The notes under the pieces are model-generated. The model searched no databases. It was not told the origin of the DNA and saw only the letters and a list, made by a program, of their open reading frames with translations. Of a stretch of 52,050 bases of DNA, positions 35,261-43,804 are shown piece by piece. Source of the stretch: a virus; IMG/VR virus record IMGVR_UViG_3300031749_000006, positions 1 to 52,050 of that record. One strand, given 5' to 3'. How positions within the stretch are numbered: the first letter of the stretch is position 1; each line of letters opens with the position of its first letter. The position numbers and the translations under genes are program-made.

Positions 35261-37255
35261 TCAGTCGTCGGTCAGAGCGCCCTTGATCAGACGCAGCCCC
35301 TTCCGAATGTCGTTTTCAAAGCGGAGATCCTCGGCTTCACGCTCGGTCATGGCGTCGTCGTCGAGGGACAGGTCCAGCGCGAGCGCGCTCTTGCGAGCCG
35401 GGATGAACGGCCGCACCGCGGCCGGCGCGGGGAGAGCAGCAGGGGCCTCATCTTCGGGCTGCAGCTTGGCGAGGTCCGCGAGCGTGAGCCGCTGCTCGGC
35501 AGCGAGCTGCTCTTTCACGCCACGCCGGAACTGGCGCCGCGCCTGCGCATGCTCGCGTGCCTTTGTGGTATCGTCGAAGCCGGCGGCCTCGAGCAGGCGC
35601 GCTTCACCGATCGGCTGACCATCCAGAGCGGCCACCTGGAGCGTTCCGTGCAGGCGGTCAGGATCGAAGCGCACGACCACGCGCTTGCCGCGCCACTCCC
35701 AGAGCGCCTCGTCGAAATACCGGTTGCCGAAGAGATGGACGGTCCCATCCGGGCGCACCGTCACGCCCTCCGCCGCCAGCAGGCACAGACGCCTCTGCGC
35801 TTCGGTTGCGCGCCGGATCAGGCTCTGCGCGAAGCTCGCGTCGAATGCTTCATCGAAACTGAGGCGGCCGCCACACACGCGCGACCGCCGCCCAGGACGT
35901 GCGTTGTGCGCGCGGATCTCGCGGTCGATGATCCTGACGAACTCGTCGAAGGGGATGGCCCGGCTGCCGTAATTCTCCGGCTTGGCCATCGGGCTGTTGC
36001 CGGTATAGGCGCCCTCGAACGCGGGGTGCTTGGCGATGTCGCGCGCGAAGTCGCCGAAGCCGCGCTCGATCGGCTTGCTCTGGCCGGCATACGGCGTCGT
36101 CCAGTGAATCTCAACGCCGAGCTGCGTGATGATCCCGGCAGGATCATCGTCCTTGACCTTGAACCGGTAACGGTTCGGGGTGCGGCCGGTCAGCCACTTC
36201 GAAGCGAAGGCGCGGCCGTTGTCGAGATAGAGATGATCGGGAATACCGTAGCCCGCGATCATGTCGCCGAAGGCGAGCCGAACGGAGTCCTTGTTCTCGG
36301 ATTTGGCTGTGCGCCAGGCGAGGAACTTGCCCGAATAGAGATCCTGGAAGGCGATCGTCAGCGGCCGCCCGATGGTGCCGTCCTCGAATTTCACGAAGAC
36401 GTCCCACTTGTGGCCGTCCGTGTTCACCGCCTGCAGCGAATGGAAGTGGGAGCGGTCACGCTCCTGGGCAGGATACAGCCGCTTGAGCGCGTCTTCGCCC
36501 TTTCGCGCGAGAATCACCGTCGGGCGCGGCAGCTCGTCGACGCGGCGGCGCAGTGTCCGGGCGGCAGGCATCGTCCAGCCATGCTCCCGCGCGATCGCCT
36601 CAGTGCGCCGGTAACAGCTCTCGAAGCTGGGCTCCGCCAGACGCATGTAATCGGCGTAGAAGACGCCCCAGACATTCTCGTCGATCTCGATCTTCTGCCG
36701 CGCGCCACCGCGTTTCGCGGGGGTAAGAGCCGCCATCCAGTCGTCGCGTCGCACGCCGCGTGTGCGCTCGATCCAACCGTAGATCGTGGAGGCGCCAACA
36801 TCGAATTCCGCGGCGACAGCGCGCACGGCATCCGTTGTCGTCATCTCGCGCTCCAGCGCGCCGATCCGCTGCAACGCCGCGAGGCGCCGGTGACCTTCGT
36901 CCTTGTTCTTGTCCGCCTGCCGCTCGAACCACGCCCACAGCGCGGCGCGGCCATCGTCATCGATGCGCCGCGTCTTCGGCTGGGGATCTGCCGCTGCGGG
37001 CGCAGGCGCCTCGTCAGATGCCTGCGCCTGGCGCATCGCCAGGAGCGCGGCCTGCGCGCTCTCTGGCAGAAGGCTGATGTGGTATTCCGTGCCGCCTCCG
37101 CGGCCGCTACGGCGGCGCGCCTTGTCCGTGCGGTCCCAGCCTTCGCGCTGGATGTATTTCAACGAACCTTGGCGAGTTGCCGGCAAGTCCGGCAATCCCA
37201 GAGCAGCGATCTCCGTCGCGGAAAGCCATTCACGATGGAGATCGCGCTTTGTCAT
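35261..37255 (-). CDS. DDE transposase (MuA-like)
   Basis: 664 residues, almost the size of MuA (663). Residues 1-75 form the Mu-type DNA-binding domain (LSATEIAALGLPDLP, TEYHISLLPESAQA). A second HTH follows (TTDAVRAVAAEFDVGASTIY). The catalytic core has Asp280 (NTDGHKWDVF), Asp345 (LYLDNGRAF) and Glu397 (QSKPIERGF), aligned with Mu D269, D336 and E392. NRYRFKVKDDDPAG is shared nearly word for word with Mu. The C-terminal Mu beta-barrel domain (TVHLFGNRYFDEALWEWRGK) follows. All catalytic residues are present, so it should be active. Confidence 0.97.
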   Translation of the reverse strand: MTKRDLHREWLSATEIAALGLPDLPATRQGSLKYIQREGWDRTDKARRRSGRGGGTEYHISLLPESAQAALLAMRQAQASDEAPAPAAADPQPKTRRIDDDGRAALWAWFERQADKNKDEGHRRLAALQRIGALEREMTTTDAVRAVAAEFDVGASTIYGWIERTRGVRRDDWMAALTPAKRGGARQKIEIDENVWGVFYADYMRLAEPSFESCYRRTEAIAREHGWTMPAARTLRRRVDELPRPTVILARKGEDALKRLYPAQERDRSHFHSLQAVNTDGHKWDVFVKFEDGTIGRPLTIAFQDLYSGKFLAWRTAKSENKDSVRLAFGDMIAGYGIPDHLYLDNGRAFASKWLTGRTPNRYRFKVKDDDPAGIITQLGVEIHWTTPYAGQSKPIERGFGDFARDIAKHPAFEGAYTGNSPMAKPENYGSRAIPFDEFVRIIDREIRAHNARPGRRSRVCGGRLSFDEAFDASFAQSLIRRATEAQRRLCLLAAEGVTVRPDGTVHLFGNRYFDEALWEWRGKRVVVRFDPDRLHGTLQVAALDGQPIGEARLLEAAGFDDTTKAREHAQARRQFRRGVKEQLAAEQRLTLADLAKLQPEDEAPAALPAPAAVRPFIPARKSALALDLSLDDDAMTEREAEDLRFENDIRKGLRLIKGALTDD
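37031..37230. repeat. Direct repeat copy 1 (5' end of the transposase gene)
   Basis: 200 bp, from GCGCATCGCC to GAAAGCCATT, repeated at 37273-37472 with long identical stretches and same length. It encodes the transposase DNA-binding domain in one copy and the free domain protein in the other. A tandem duplication of the 5' end of the transposase gene, followed by divergence in the middle, explains it. Confidence 0.85.
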
Positions 37256-40993: not shown

Positions 40994-42178
40994 CGCTGCC
41001 ACCGGCGGCTCATCCTCAGGCCGCACGTAGCCGCGCTCGACGCGCAGCGCGCCGCCACGGTCGATGCTGACGAAGGCGCCGGCGCGGACGATGTCGGCGG
41101 GGTCGAATTTCGGCGGTCGGTTCTGGAATGCCTCGATCGCCGCTTCGATTTCGGTCAGTCGTGCCTCGACCGCCTCGGGAAGTTCGTCGGCCTCGCCATA
41201 CTGCTCCTCCAGCGCGTCGTATTCGGCCTTCAGCGCATTGAACTCCGCCTGTTCGGCCTCGGTGAGGGGATTGGTGAAGGGCAGCGGGCGCAGCCCCTGC
41301 CGATGGCCGTAGGGGAAATCCGGGGCGGCCTCGACCCATTTCCAGCCTTCGGCGCGGATGGCGTCCGCCTCGCGGGCCAGCCGCTCGGCCACGAGCCGGT
41401 CGAGCAGCGCCGGATCCTGCAACCAGCCGCCCTCGTCCTCCTGGAACAGGTCGCGCATCACGATGCCGCCGGCGGCTTCGTGCGCCTCGATGCCGACGAA
41501 GCAGGCGCGCCGGTCGGTCGCGCGCACCGCGCCCTCGGTCAGCATGCGGCGGATGATGTGCGGCTCCTTGTTCCAGCCGCGCTGAACCGTCGCCCACACC
41601 TGCTCCTGCCGCGCGTGATCGTCGCTGACGCAGAACGCCATCAGCTGATCGAGCGTCAGCGCGCCCTCGGCATAGGCATCGAGCAGCGCCGGGCTGGCGG
41701 CGGCGAGCTTGAGCCGCTGGCGCACCACCGCGGCGGTGACGCCGAACGCCGCGGCGATCTCCTCCTCGCCCTGGCCCTTCGCGCGCAGCGCCTGGAAGGC
41801 GCGGAACTGGTCGAGCGGGTGCAGCGCCTCGCGGTCGATGTTCTCGGCGAGGCTATCCTCCTCGGCGAGGCCGTCGGTCTTGACGATGCAGGGGATGGGT
41901 GCGGTCTTGGCCAGGCGCTTCTGCCGGACCAGCAGTTCCAGCGCCCGGAAGCGCCGACCGCCGGCGGGCACCTCGAACATGCCCGTCTCATTGCCCTCGG
42001 CGTCCAGCACCGGGCGCACACTCAGGCTTTGCAGCAGGGAGCGGCGGGCGATGCTCTCGGCCAGCGCCTCGATCGAGACGCCGGCCTTCACGCGCCGGAC
42101 ATTGGCCTGGCTGAGGACGAGCTTGTTGAACGGGATGTCCCGGGACGGGTTCAGGACGATCTTCTGGGTCGCAGCCAT
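40989..42178 (-). pseudogene. parB: ParB-like protein, N-terminal fragment cut off by prophage insertion
   Basis: 397 residues remain, plus two codons and a stop supplied by phage DNA (TGA at 40979). They cover the ParB N-terminal fold (VLSQANVRRVKAGVSIEALA, FEVPAGGRRFRALELLVRQK with the nucleotide box) and the helix-turn-helix (QGEEEIAAAFGVTAAVVRQR), then an acidic linker (ALEEQYGEADELPEA). The C-terminal 309 residues are at 1722-2657. The product may still bind nucleotide and DNA but lacks its C-terminal domain. The gene is preceded by the shared 80-nt leader. Confidence 0.92.
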
Positions 42179-42182
42179 CGGT

Positions 42183-42265
42183 GATCTCCGCGGCGGGCCG
42201 GCCAGGAGCCTCTCTCCCAGCCCCTCGACCCGTCACGACAATCCCGTCCGCCCTCTCGCTCTCGG
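42183..42265 (-). ncRNA. Conserved leader, copy A (before parB)
   Basis: 83 nt ending 4 nt before the parB ATG. It shares TCTCCGCG, CGGGC, GAGCCTCTCTC, CCGTCACG and CTCTC-CTCTCGG blocks (plus-strand reading), in the same order and spacing, with copies B and C. On the mRNA, GUGACGGG (42236-42229) can pair with CCCGCCGC (42197-42190), with one mismatch, next to the GGAG ribosome site. Conserved noncoding leaders of this kind suggest a cis-regulatory RNA. Confidence 0.7.
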
Positions 42266-42279
42266 CGGCGGCGGGCGCC

Positions 42280-42675
42280 TCAGGCGCCGGGGGCATCCGT
42301 TGCCGTTTCGGGCAGGTTGACCACCTCGGCGCCAGCGGCGCGGTAGGCCGCCGCGACTGCCACCAGGGGCGCGTAGCTGAACGGGCCATGCGGTGGTGGG
42401 TCAGGCGGCGCGCCGACGGCGACCATTGGCCCGCGAATGACGAGCCGCGCCACGGCGTCGAAGGCGACGCCACGGCTGTCGATCACCGGCAGGCCGGCTT
42501 CAATGCAGGCCGCCTTGAGCGGCTCGGGATCGTATCCCAGGAGGCGGGAGCCGTTTCCATACCAGAGTATGAAGCCGCCTCGGCCGATCGAGAGGTGGCC
42601 ACCGTCGGTCGCCAGGGCTTCGGCGATCAGGTCGGCATGGTGGGAGTGGAGGTCGACGTTTTCGGCGGCACTCAT
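42280..42675 (-). CDS. Conserved island protein, 131 aa
   Basis: Start at MSAAENVDLHSHHADLIAEA (42675), set by the leader and GGAG site; the longer frame upstream is a shadow of ardC. Contains GFILWYGNGSRLLGYDPEPL and VIDSRGVAFDAVARLVIRGP; mixed alpha/beta, no membrane part. It sits between ardC and parB, an arrangement I associate with alphaproteobacterial plasmids, but I cannot name a family. It ends 14 nt before copy A of the leader. Confidence 0.7.
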   Translation of the reverse strand: MSAAENVDLHSHHADLIAEALATDGGHLSIGRGGFILWYGNGSRLLGYDPEPLKAACIEAGLPVIDSRGVAFDAVARLVIRGPMVAVGAPPDPPPHGPFSYAPLVAVAAAYRAAGAEVVNLPETATDAPGA

Positions 42676-42680
42676 GGCAG

Positions 42681-42762
42681 TTCTCCGCGACGGGCCGGCC
42701 GGAAGCCTCTCTCCCGACCTTTCGCCCCCGTCACGGAACGCCGACGGCCCTCTGGCTCTCGG
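42681..42762 (-). ncRNA. Conserved leader, copy B (before the 131-residue gene)
   Basis: 82 nt ending 5 nt before the ATG at 42675. It aligns block by block with copies A and C. Its 5' third (42731-42762) is also the last codons of ardC (PESQRAVGVP), so the leader overlaps a reading frame. GUGACGGG (42734-42727) and CCCGUCGC (42694-42687) are fully complementary with one U-G pair; the 3' strand touches the GGAGAA ribosome site. Confidence 0.75.
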
Positions 42763-43720
42763 GCGCCGAGGCCGGGATCGCGGGACCCGATGGAGCTTCC
42801 GGCCGATCCTCATCGGGCTGGAACGCCAGCAGATAGTCGGCGGCCTTCGAGGCGGCGCTGGCGGCGCGGATGATCGCGCGATCATCGTCGCGCAGCACCT
42901 CGAGCCAGGAACCGATGTAGTCGGCGTGCCGCACGGTCGGCACGACGCCGAGGCTCGCGCAGAGGAACGCCGCCGTCATCTCGGCGACCAGTTCTTCCTT
43001 CGCGTAGCTGGCGGAGCCGAAGCCGCCGGACATGTCGCGGGCCAGGCGATTGGGCGCGCCGGACCAGTGGCCGAGCTCATGCAGCGCGGTGCGATGCCAG
43101 TTCACCGGCTCGAAATAGGCCTGCGGCGGCGGCACCTGGATGAAGTCGCCGATGACTGAATAGAACGCGCGGTCGCCGCCGATCCTGATGTCGGCGCCAC
43201 TGGCCCGGATCAGCGCCTCGGCGTGTGGCAGAATGAGGCCCTCGGGAACCGGTGGTGCCGTGGACGCGATCGTGGCGGACAGGCCTTCGCACTGATCGGT
43301 GTTGAACACGGTGAAGCGCTTGAGGAACGGGATGGCGCTCGGCTCGTCGCCGTCGCGGTCGGCGCGCTCCCGCTCGGCCTCGGGGATGAAGCGGTCGGCA
43401 TAGACCACCGTGGTGCCGCGCTCGCCCCTGCGGACATTGCCCCCGAGCCCGAGCGCCTGGCGGAAGGTGAGCCAGGCCTGGCCGGCATAGCCGCGCTCGA
43501 TGACCGCGCCCCAGAGGATCAGCACGTTGATCCCCGAATAGCGCCGGCCGGTGGCGGCGTTCTTCGGCAGGCCGACGGCCGCCCCGGTGCCCGAGGAGCC
43601 CCAGGGCTGGACCCAGGGCAGGCGTCCGGCTTCCAGCTCGGCGATGATGTTGTCGGTGATTTCGGAATAGAGGCTCGCCCGGTCCTGACCGGTACGAGCA
43701 CGAGCGGATGGACGTGACAT
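42731..43720 (-). CDS. ardC: ArdC-type antirestriction / ssDNA-binding protein
   Basis: 329 residues. The N-terminal ssDNA-binding domain (LYSEITDNIIAELEAGRLPW, RYSGINVLILWGAVIERGYA, GERGTTVVYADRFIP) is followed by a metallopeptidase-like domain with HELGHW (214-219) and KEELVAEMTAAFLCASLG, giving His, His and Glu ligands. ArdC proteins of conjugative elements protect incoming single-stranded DNA from restriction. It is the first gene of the minus-strand ardC-parB run and carries leader copy C. Confidence 0.93.
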   Translation of the reverse strand: MSRPSARARTGQDRASLYSEITDNIIAELEAGRLPWVQPWGSSGTGAAVGLPKNAATGRRYSGINVLILWGAVIERGYAGQAWLTFRQALGLGGNVRRGERGTTVVYADRFIPEAERERADRDGDEPSAIPFLKRFTVFNTDQCEGLSATIASTAPPVPEGLILPHAEALIRASGADIRIGGDRAFYSVIGDFIQVPPPQAYFEPVNWHRTALHELGHWSGAPNRLARDMSGGFGSASYAKEELVAEMTAAFLCASLGVVPTVRHADYIGSWLEVLRDDDRAIIRAASAASKAADYLLAFQPDEDRPEAPSGPAIPASAPESQRAVGVP

Positions 43721-43724
43721 CGCG

Positions 43725-43804
43725 GATCTCCGCGACGGGCGCCGCGAGCCTCTCTCGCAGTCCTGAACCCGTCACGGCTGACCCGGCCGAACTCTCACTC
43801 TCGG
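43725..43804 (-). ncRNA. Conserved leader, copy C (before ardC)
   Basis: 80 nt ending 4 nt before the ardC ATG (43720). Blocks: GATCTCCGCGACGGGC, GAGCCTCTCTC, CCCGTCACGG, CTCTCACTCTCGG (plus-strand reading). GUGACGGG (43775-43768) pairs perfectly, with one U-G, with CCCGUCGC (43739-43732) beside the GGAGA ribosome site. No ORF overlaps this copy, so conservation here is not explained by coding. Confidence 0.78.

Follow-up and report, generated by a model that had tools for sequence, protein, structure and literature searches.

What is the function of a sequence that is repeated directly before three consecutive genes, on a stretch of DNA filed as a virus, and does it act as DNA or as RNA? The window (the whole stretch analysed, 52,050 nucleotides, positions 1 to 52,050 of IMG/VR record IMGVR_UViG_3300031749_000006) carries, on its minus strand, three copies of one element of 87-90 nt, placed before ardC, a 131-codon gene, and a parB-like gene. 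The sequence-only reading had described three segments of 80-83 nt ending 4-5 nt before the start codons, and this observation is confirmed: they stop 4, 5, and 4 nt short of the ATG codons at 43720, 42675, and 42178 (copies A, B, and C, respectively, minus strand). The features concerned are as follows.

43718..43804, minus strand: leader copy A, 5' of ardC (ATG at 43720), scoring 87.0 bits with covariance model R2
43792..43801, minus strand: 5' purine motif AGAGTGAGAG of copy A, with equivalents at 42750-42759 (copy B) and 42253-42262 (copy C)
42673..42762, minus strand: leader copy B, 5' of the 131-codon gene (ATG at 42675), overlapping the 3' end of ardC
42176..42265, minus strand: leader copy C, 5' of the parB-like gene (ATG at 42178)
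42731..43720, minus strand: ardC, 329 aa, with ArdcN and MPTase-PolyVal domains (Pfam)
42280..42675, minus strand: 131-aa gene of unknown family, with homologues bearing the same leader in loci L177 and L178
40979..42178, minus strand: parB-like gene, 399 aa, corresponding to the N-terminal part of the ~710-aa ParB-1 family

On both strands of the window, matches to AGAGNNAGAG are confined to the three copies, and the chance expectation of the 31-nt core common to copies B and C is 0.00 (shuffles). A covariance model (R1), built from copies A and C and their plasmid relatives with copy B excluded, recovered copy B with 73.5 bits (E=1.8e-18). Each window copy is predicted to fold into one long hairpin, with GGAG, the ribosome site, within and next to the base of the hairpin, and the shuffle z-scores of the fold are -2.8, -3.0, and -2.0 for the three copies. 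In copy B, the ardC stop codon is the UGA of GUGACGGG. This overlap with the ardC coding end, also pointed out in the sequence-only reading, holds and is peculiar to this locus: a leader overlaps the preceding coding end in only one of 74 consecutive leader pairs. Translational coupling via the ardC stop was, therefore, rejected as a general feature. Coding constraint was also rejected as the cause of conservation, as the elements are intergenic almost everywhere.

The element is found well beyond this locus. BLAST retrieved it in 164 plasmid records, the named ones being alphaproteobacterial, and 85 of these records are predicted to be conjugative (MOB-suite). An exact-pattern scan of genome contigs returned loci from at least Rhodobacterales, Sphingomonadales, Hyphomicrobiales, Caulobacterales, Acetobacteraceae, and others. 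When 385 genomes were sampled evenly from the class to which a Bradyrhizobium genome belongs (Alphaproteobacteria), 27 carried the element, usually in 1-4 copies each. Among 274 genomes of the class of a metagenome-assembled genome (MAG) that bears the label Gammaproteobacteria, the matches were limited to this MAG itself and a single degenerate copy. Phage records merely gave short chance matches (E 0.07 or worse), and viral contigs yielded one further record with the element, so that a phage feature was rejected; the element belongs to plasmids and islands. The window also contains a Mu-type transposase gene (DDE_2, Mu-transpos_C) at 35261-37255 on the minus strand, and this gene is probably why a plasmid or island contig was filed as a virus record.

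A structured cis-regulatory RNA leader is expected to show a conserved secondary structure with compensatory changes, and a fixed place in the 5'-UTR of related or co-functioning genes. The first expectation is met. The fold is a two-part hairpin, in which P1 (GUGACGGG/CCCGUCGC) is topped by a stacked helix, P2 (GCYGGGAG-AGAGG-CUCCCGGC), formed around the AGAGG loop. The sequence-only reading had proposed the helix beside GGAG, which is present in all three window copies; the fold is larger than it had seen, with P2 as a second helix above. The compensatory changes that it had named as a check, together with a covariance model, were found in both helices. In P2, they are already visible among the three window copies. 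With 145 distinct copies in an alignment fitted to the structure, double-sided changes occur in 13 of 19 pairs. They amount to 128 cells, whereas shuffles gave 37 and slid structures no more than 38. As this alignment had been fitted to the structure, 241 copies were realigned by MAFFT without it: the five strongest covarying column pairs all fall in P1/P2, and a sixth helix pair ranks ninth. Outside these two helices, no covarying pairs stand out that would indicate a pseudoknot in the main leader type (structure-free alignment). Since many loci stem from the pattern scan, the count was also redone on 101 copies lying outside the scan pattern, in which 95% of pairs are standard and clear exchanges occur (e.g., A-U to G-C in P2); pattern-scan bias was, therefore, rejected as the source of the covariation. 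The structure is thus shown. Outside the stems, the 5' AGAGNNAGAG and the AGAGG loop are nearly invariant in the homologues.

The second expectation is also met. The 3' end falls on an ATG in 241 of the 249 distinct copies, and in 239 of these 241, a GGAG that is paired in the fold lies 7-10 nt upstream. The predicted unpaired probability of this Shine-Dalgarno (SD) sequence is 0.17, versus 0.48 when the 5' part is shuffled. Cells with G-U pairs greatly outnumber those with A-C mismatches (466 vs 42; 595 vs 90 when aligned without structure). It follows that the structured strand has the sense of the mRNA, and this speaks against an ssDNA promoter on the template strand. The strand, the fixed place at the start codon, and the predicted SD sequestration are shown, and the ATG-end position, the GGAG spacing, and the predicted SD accessibility place the element at translation initiation. 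A consensus scan found no sigma-70-like promoter at the three copies, a type of evidence that is weak, and no conserved -35/-10 was found upstream of most copies. The suggestion, made with the first description, that the element might act during entry as single strands is unsupported as a DNA mechanism, the strand test favouring RNA; timing in the entry phase remains an inference from gene functions.

Genes of at least five families bear the leader: ArdC, two ParB-like families (one of ~710 aa and a second one), a DUF932-like family (~397 aa, with a Pfam match under the curated cut-off), and an uncharacterised family of ~182 aa. Further bearers are the family of the 131-aa window gene and some singletons, an AlpA-like gene among them. 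In the 385 alphaproteobacterial genomes, the leader is found at 22 of 22 full-length ParB homologues scoring above 800 bits and at 11 of 11 ArdC homologues above 500 bits, and at none of 25 more distant ArdC; the search before other ardC and parB genes that the sequence-only reading had called for thus turned out in favour of the element. For R388, conjugation requires ArdC in the recipient (PMC7213743), and a number of these domains have been described as early-phase conflict proteins (PMC5512222), which is why the genes are called establishment genes here. The shared regulon is shown; its use just after DNA entry is inferred. Within a locus, leader identity is 0.677, against 0.671 after permutation, and it reaches 0.74-0.76 for the same family in other loci. 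Leaders, therefore, group by gene and not by island, and this comparison gave no sign of co-evolution within an island. The shared motifs thus look like a common constraint rather than recent copying, which fits a class-wide factor better than an island-specific repressor. A conserved factor encoded by the elements might also impose such a constraint.

Some of these genes have no assigned function. The ~182-185-aa family, without a match in Pfam or NCBIfam, has the leader at about 14 loci or more (L085:6795-7349, plus strand; L059, L023, L046, L008, L084, and others) and can tentatively be proposed as a new establishment or anti-defence gene. The 131-aa protein likewise has no Pfam or NCBIfam match; in L177 and L178, its leader-bearing homologues are followed by a leader-bearing parB-type gene. 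The AlpA-like regulator gene (L165:1670-2047, minus strand) bears the leader and lies upstream of ArdC in that locus.

Two related elements accompany the main leader type. A variant leader stands before the strawberry-notch helicase/methylase-helicase gene of the same islands in nearly all of about 36 loci. It has the same 5' AGAGNNAGAG, a GAGAGAG loop, and a different lower stem; its conserved CGCUCUCC adjoins the SD and might pair with the AGAG motifs. In addition, a GC-rich inverted-repeat block of ~95 nt, containing GGGGAAAGCCTTCCCC, GGCCGAG..CTCGGCC, and TGCGGGGAGACCCCGCAACGCCCC, immediately precedes roughly half of the ArdC and DUF932 leaders but none of those of ParB. This block, which at times occurs without a leader, has no Rfam match and was not seen in the window.

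L249:22250-22359 and L248:26610-26720, plus strand: examples of the variant leader, with about 34 further loci
L001:3915-4000, plus strand: ~95-nt block, also in L002, L031, L076, L082, and others

Taken as a whole, the element is likely an uncatalogued, cis-acting, structured 5' leader RNA that controls the translation of establishment genes through a factor conserved in Alphaproteobacteria. The leader would be a property of otherwise unrelated establishment and anti-restriction genes of alphaproteobacterial mobile elements. In this view, the hairpin would keep the Shine-Dalgarno GGAG in and beside P1, resulting in low default translation, and a trans-acting factor would read the unpaired AGAG motifs, i.e., the 5' AGAGNNAGAG and the apical AGAGG loop. 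Its binding would open or lock the hairpin, and all leader-bearing genes would respond together. The factor would probably be class-conserved; an RNA-binding protein or an sRNA of the host would qualify, as would the 16S tail of the ribosome itself. The sign of control and the identity of the factor are inferred, not shown. No expression, probing, or mutational data support the switch, and a paired SD in a predicted fold is no proof of repression; the constant AGAG motifs might also serve something other than a regulator. The sequence-only proposal of a cis-acting RNA co-regulating establishment genes is, to this extent, supported, the ligand and the effect of disrupting the helix being unproven. 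Antisense pairing with CCUCUCUC, in cis or in trans, was rejected in the window, as its occurrence outside the elements is near chance. Recognition of the CsrA/TRAP type was set aside on general grounds, as the loop lacks a constant GGA and the repeats are too few. Compared with riboswitches, the leader is a simple hairpin, in which no multi-helix aptamer was seen.

The rival that deserves most attention is a constitutive translation aid, in which the AGAGAGG loop and the purine tract at the 5' end are standby sites pairing with the alphaproteobacterial 16S tail CCUCCUUUCU, where ribosomes wait for the hairpin to breathe, without any dedicated regulator. This remains possible. Pairing of the loop with CCUCCUUUCU has a mean of -10.0 kcal/mol, versus -7.3 for the E. 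coli tail, that of the 5' motif is -8.8 versus -6.1, and such a mechanism would account for the restriction to Alphaproteobacteria. Nevertheless, the 5' motif does scarcely better than shuffles (-8.8 vs -7.3), the loop has just five unpaired bases, and the strong covariation of P2 is suggestive of a shaped recognition site. Of seven genomes, two yielded the pattern of the 16S tail; it was not found in the other five, possibly because these are drafts without rRNA. A role in mRNA processing or stability (e.g., as an RNase III site or a 5' end protector), without a translation switch, is less likely. The stem is indeed long and stable, and in multi-gene clusters every gene is preceded by a copy of its own, which would suit the separation of cistrons. 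However, such an element needs neither a fixed GGAG-to-ATG spacing nor a paired SD, both of which are seen in nearly all copies, and the near-invariant unpaired 5' motif would be just as unnecessary.

Explanations at the DNA level are much harder to sustain. A structure on the incoming single strand, such as a promoter or priming site of the Frpo/ssi type, would suit hairpins that repeat before entry-phase genes, and the gene classes are like the leading-region genes of other plasmids (PMC11541004). Yet G-U pairs exceed A-C mismatches about eleven-fold, and on the template strand, which an ssDNA promoter needs, they would themselves be A-C mismatches; moreover, the three copies lack a sigma-70-like site, and the element contains the SD and ends at the start codon. 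This rival is, therefore, very unlikely. Equally improbable is a double-stranded operator or promoter for a regulator such as a ParB-like protein, despite the inverted repeats and the DNA-binding ParB-like protein encoded at many loci: base pairing on one strand only, rich in G-U and interrupted by an asymmetric internal loop, a constant spacing to ATG, one copy within the ardC coding end, and the lack of a conserved -35/-10 upstream of most copies all speak against it.

The translational leader RNA thus remains the preferred reading, and it bears on how mobile elements turn on their establishment genes in time. This is known for few systems, in which control is exerted on DNA (ssDNA promoters, repressors). 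With an RNA leader that is widespread, supported by covariance, and common to unrelated establishment genes, an answer at the RNA level becomes testable. The leader offers a handle for finding the factor, and a sequence marker by which more genes of possible establishment or anti-defence function could be picked up; neither the ~182-aa nor the 131-aa family has an assigned domain. A bolder reading, slightly less likely than not, is that conjugative elements of Alphaproteobacteria run a post-transcriptional establishment regulon, with one RNA switch before at least five unrelated families, a class-conserved factor, and joint translation of anti-restriction and settling genes in the new host.

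Comparison with known systems supports analogy rather than membership. With Rfam 15, no match was obtained at the gathering threshold in the window or in eight further leader-bearing loci, in agreement with the earlier statement that no named family was known, and the sole permissive match in the element region has E=1 and lies on the opposite strand. EGeRS1 of the pLS20-family Bacillus plasmids (PMC8708921) is also a conserved sequence with inverted repeats, recurring at a number of establishment operons (ardC among them) immediately 5' of the RBS. However, it spans 400-600 bp, occurs in Firmicutes, and has an unknown mechanism, whereas the present leader is 87-90 nt long with mostly unconserved upstream sequence, is supported by covariance, and is built around the SD; the likeness is an analogy only. 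Frpo/ssi single-strand promoters (PMC11541004) are likewise hairpins common to the anti-defence genes of entering DNA, but they mimic promoters, with -35/-10 boxes, while the leader has no promoter-like site at its copies and, by the G-U/A-C asymmetry, is an mRNA-sense structure abutting the start codon. Among structured RNA candidates (PMC2864571), the STAXI motif (RF01728) also lies near ssb, antirestriction, and integrase genes, but consists of tandem pseudoknots and belongs to Enterobacteriales. The radC RNA motif (RF01754) is a proteobacterial candidate cis-regulatory RNA, and a radC gene type lies near some leaders (pEJ01), although a motif scan found no leader at the pEJ01 radC gene itself. 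Neither RF01728 nor RF01754 matched the leader at gathering score in the window and the eight loci. The nearest mechanistic likeness is to SD-sequestering translational operators, in which a hairpin also pairs the SD beside the start codon; in contrast, the present leader is common to at least five unrelated families on mobile elements, and its ligand is unknown. Such leaders are already known. In the open-licence literature searched, no prior description of this family was found, and neither the family nor its sharing among unrelated establishment genes nor its distribution appears to have been described. The bolder regulon reading, if true, would make it the RNA-level counterpart of Frpo and EGeRS.
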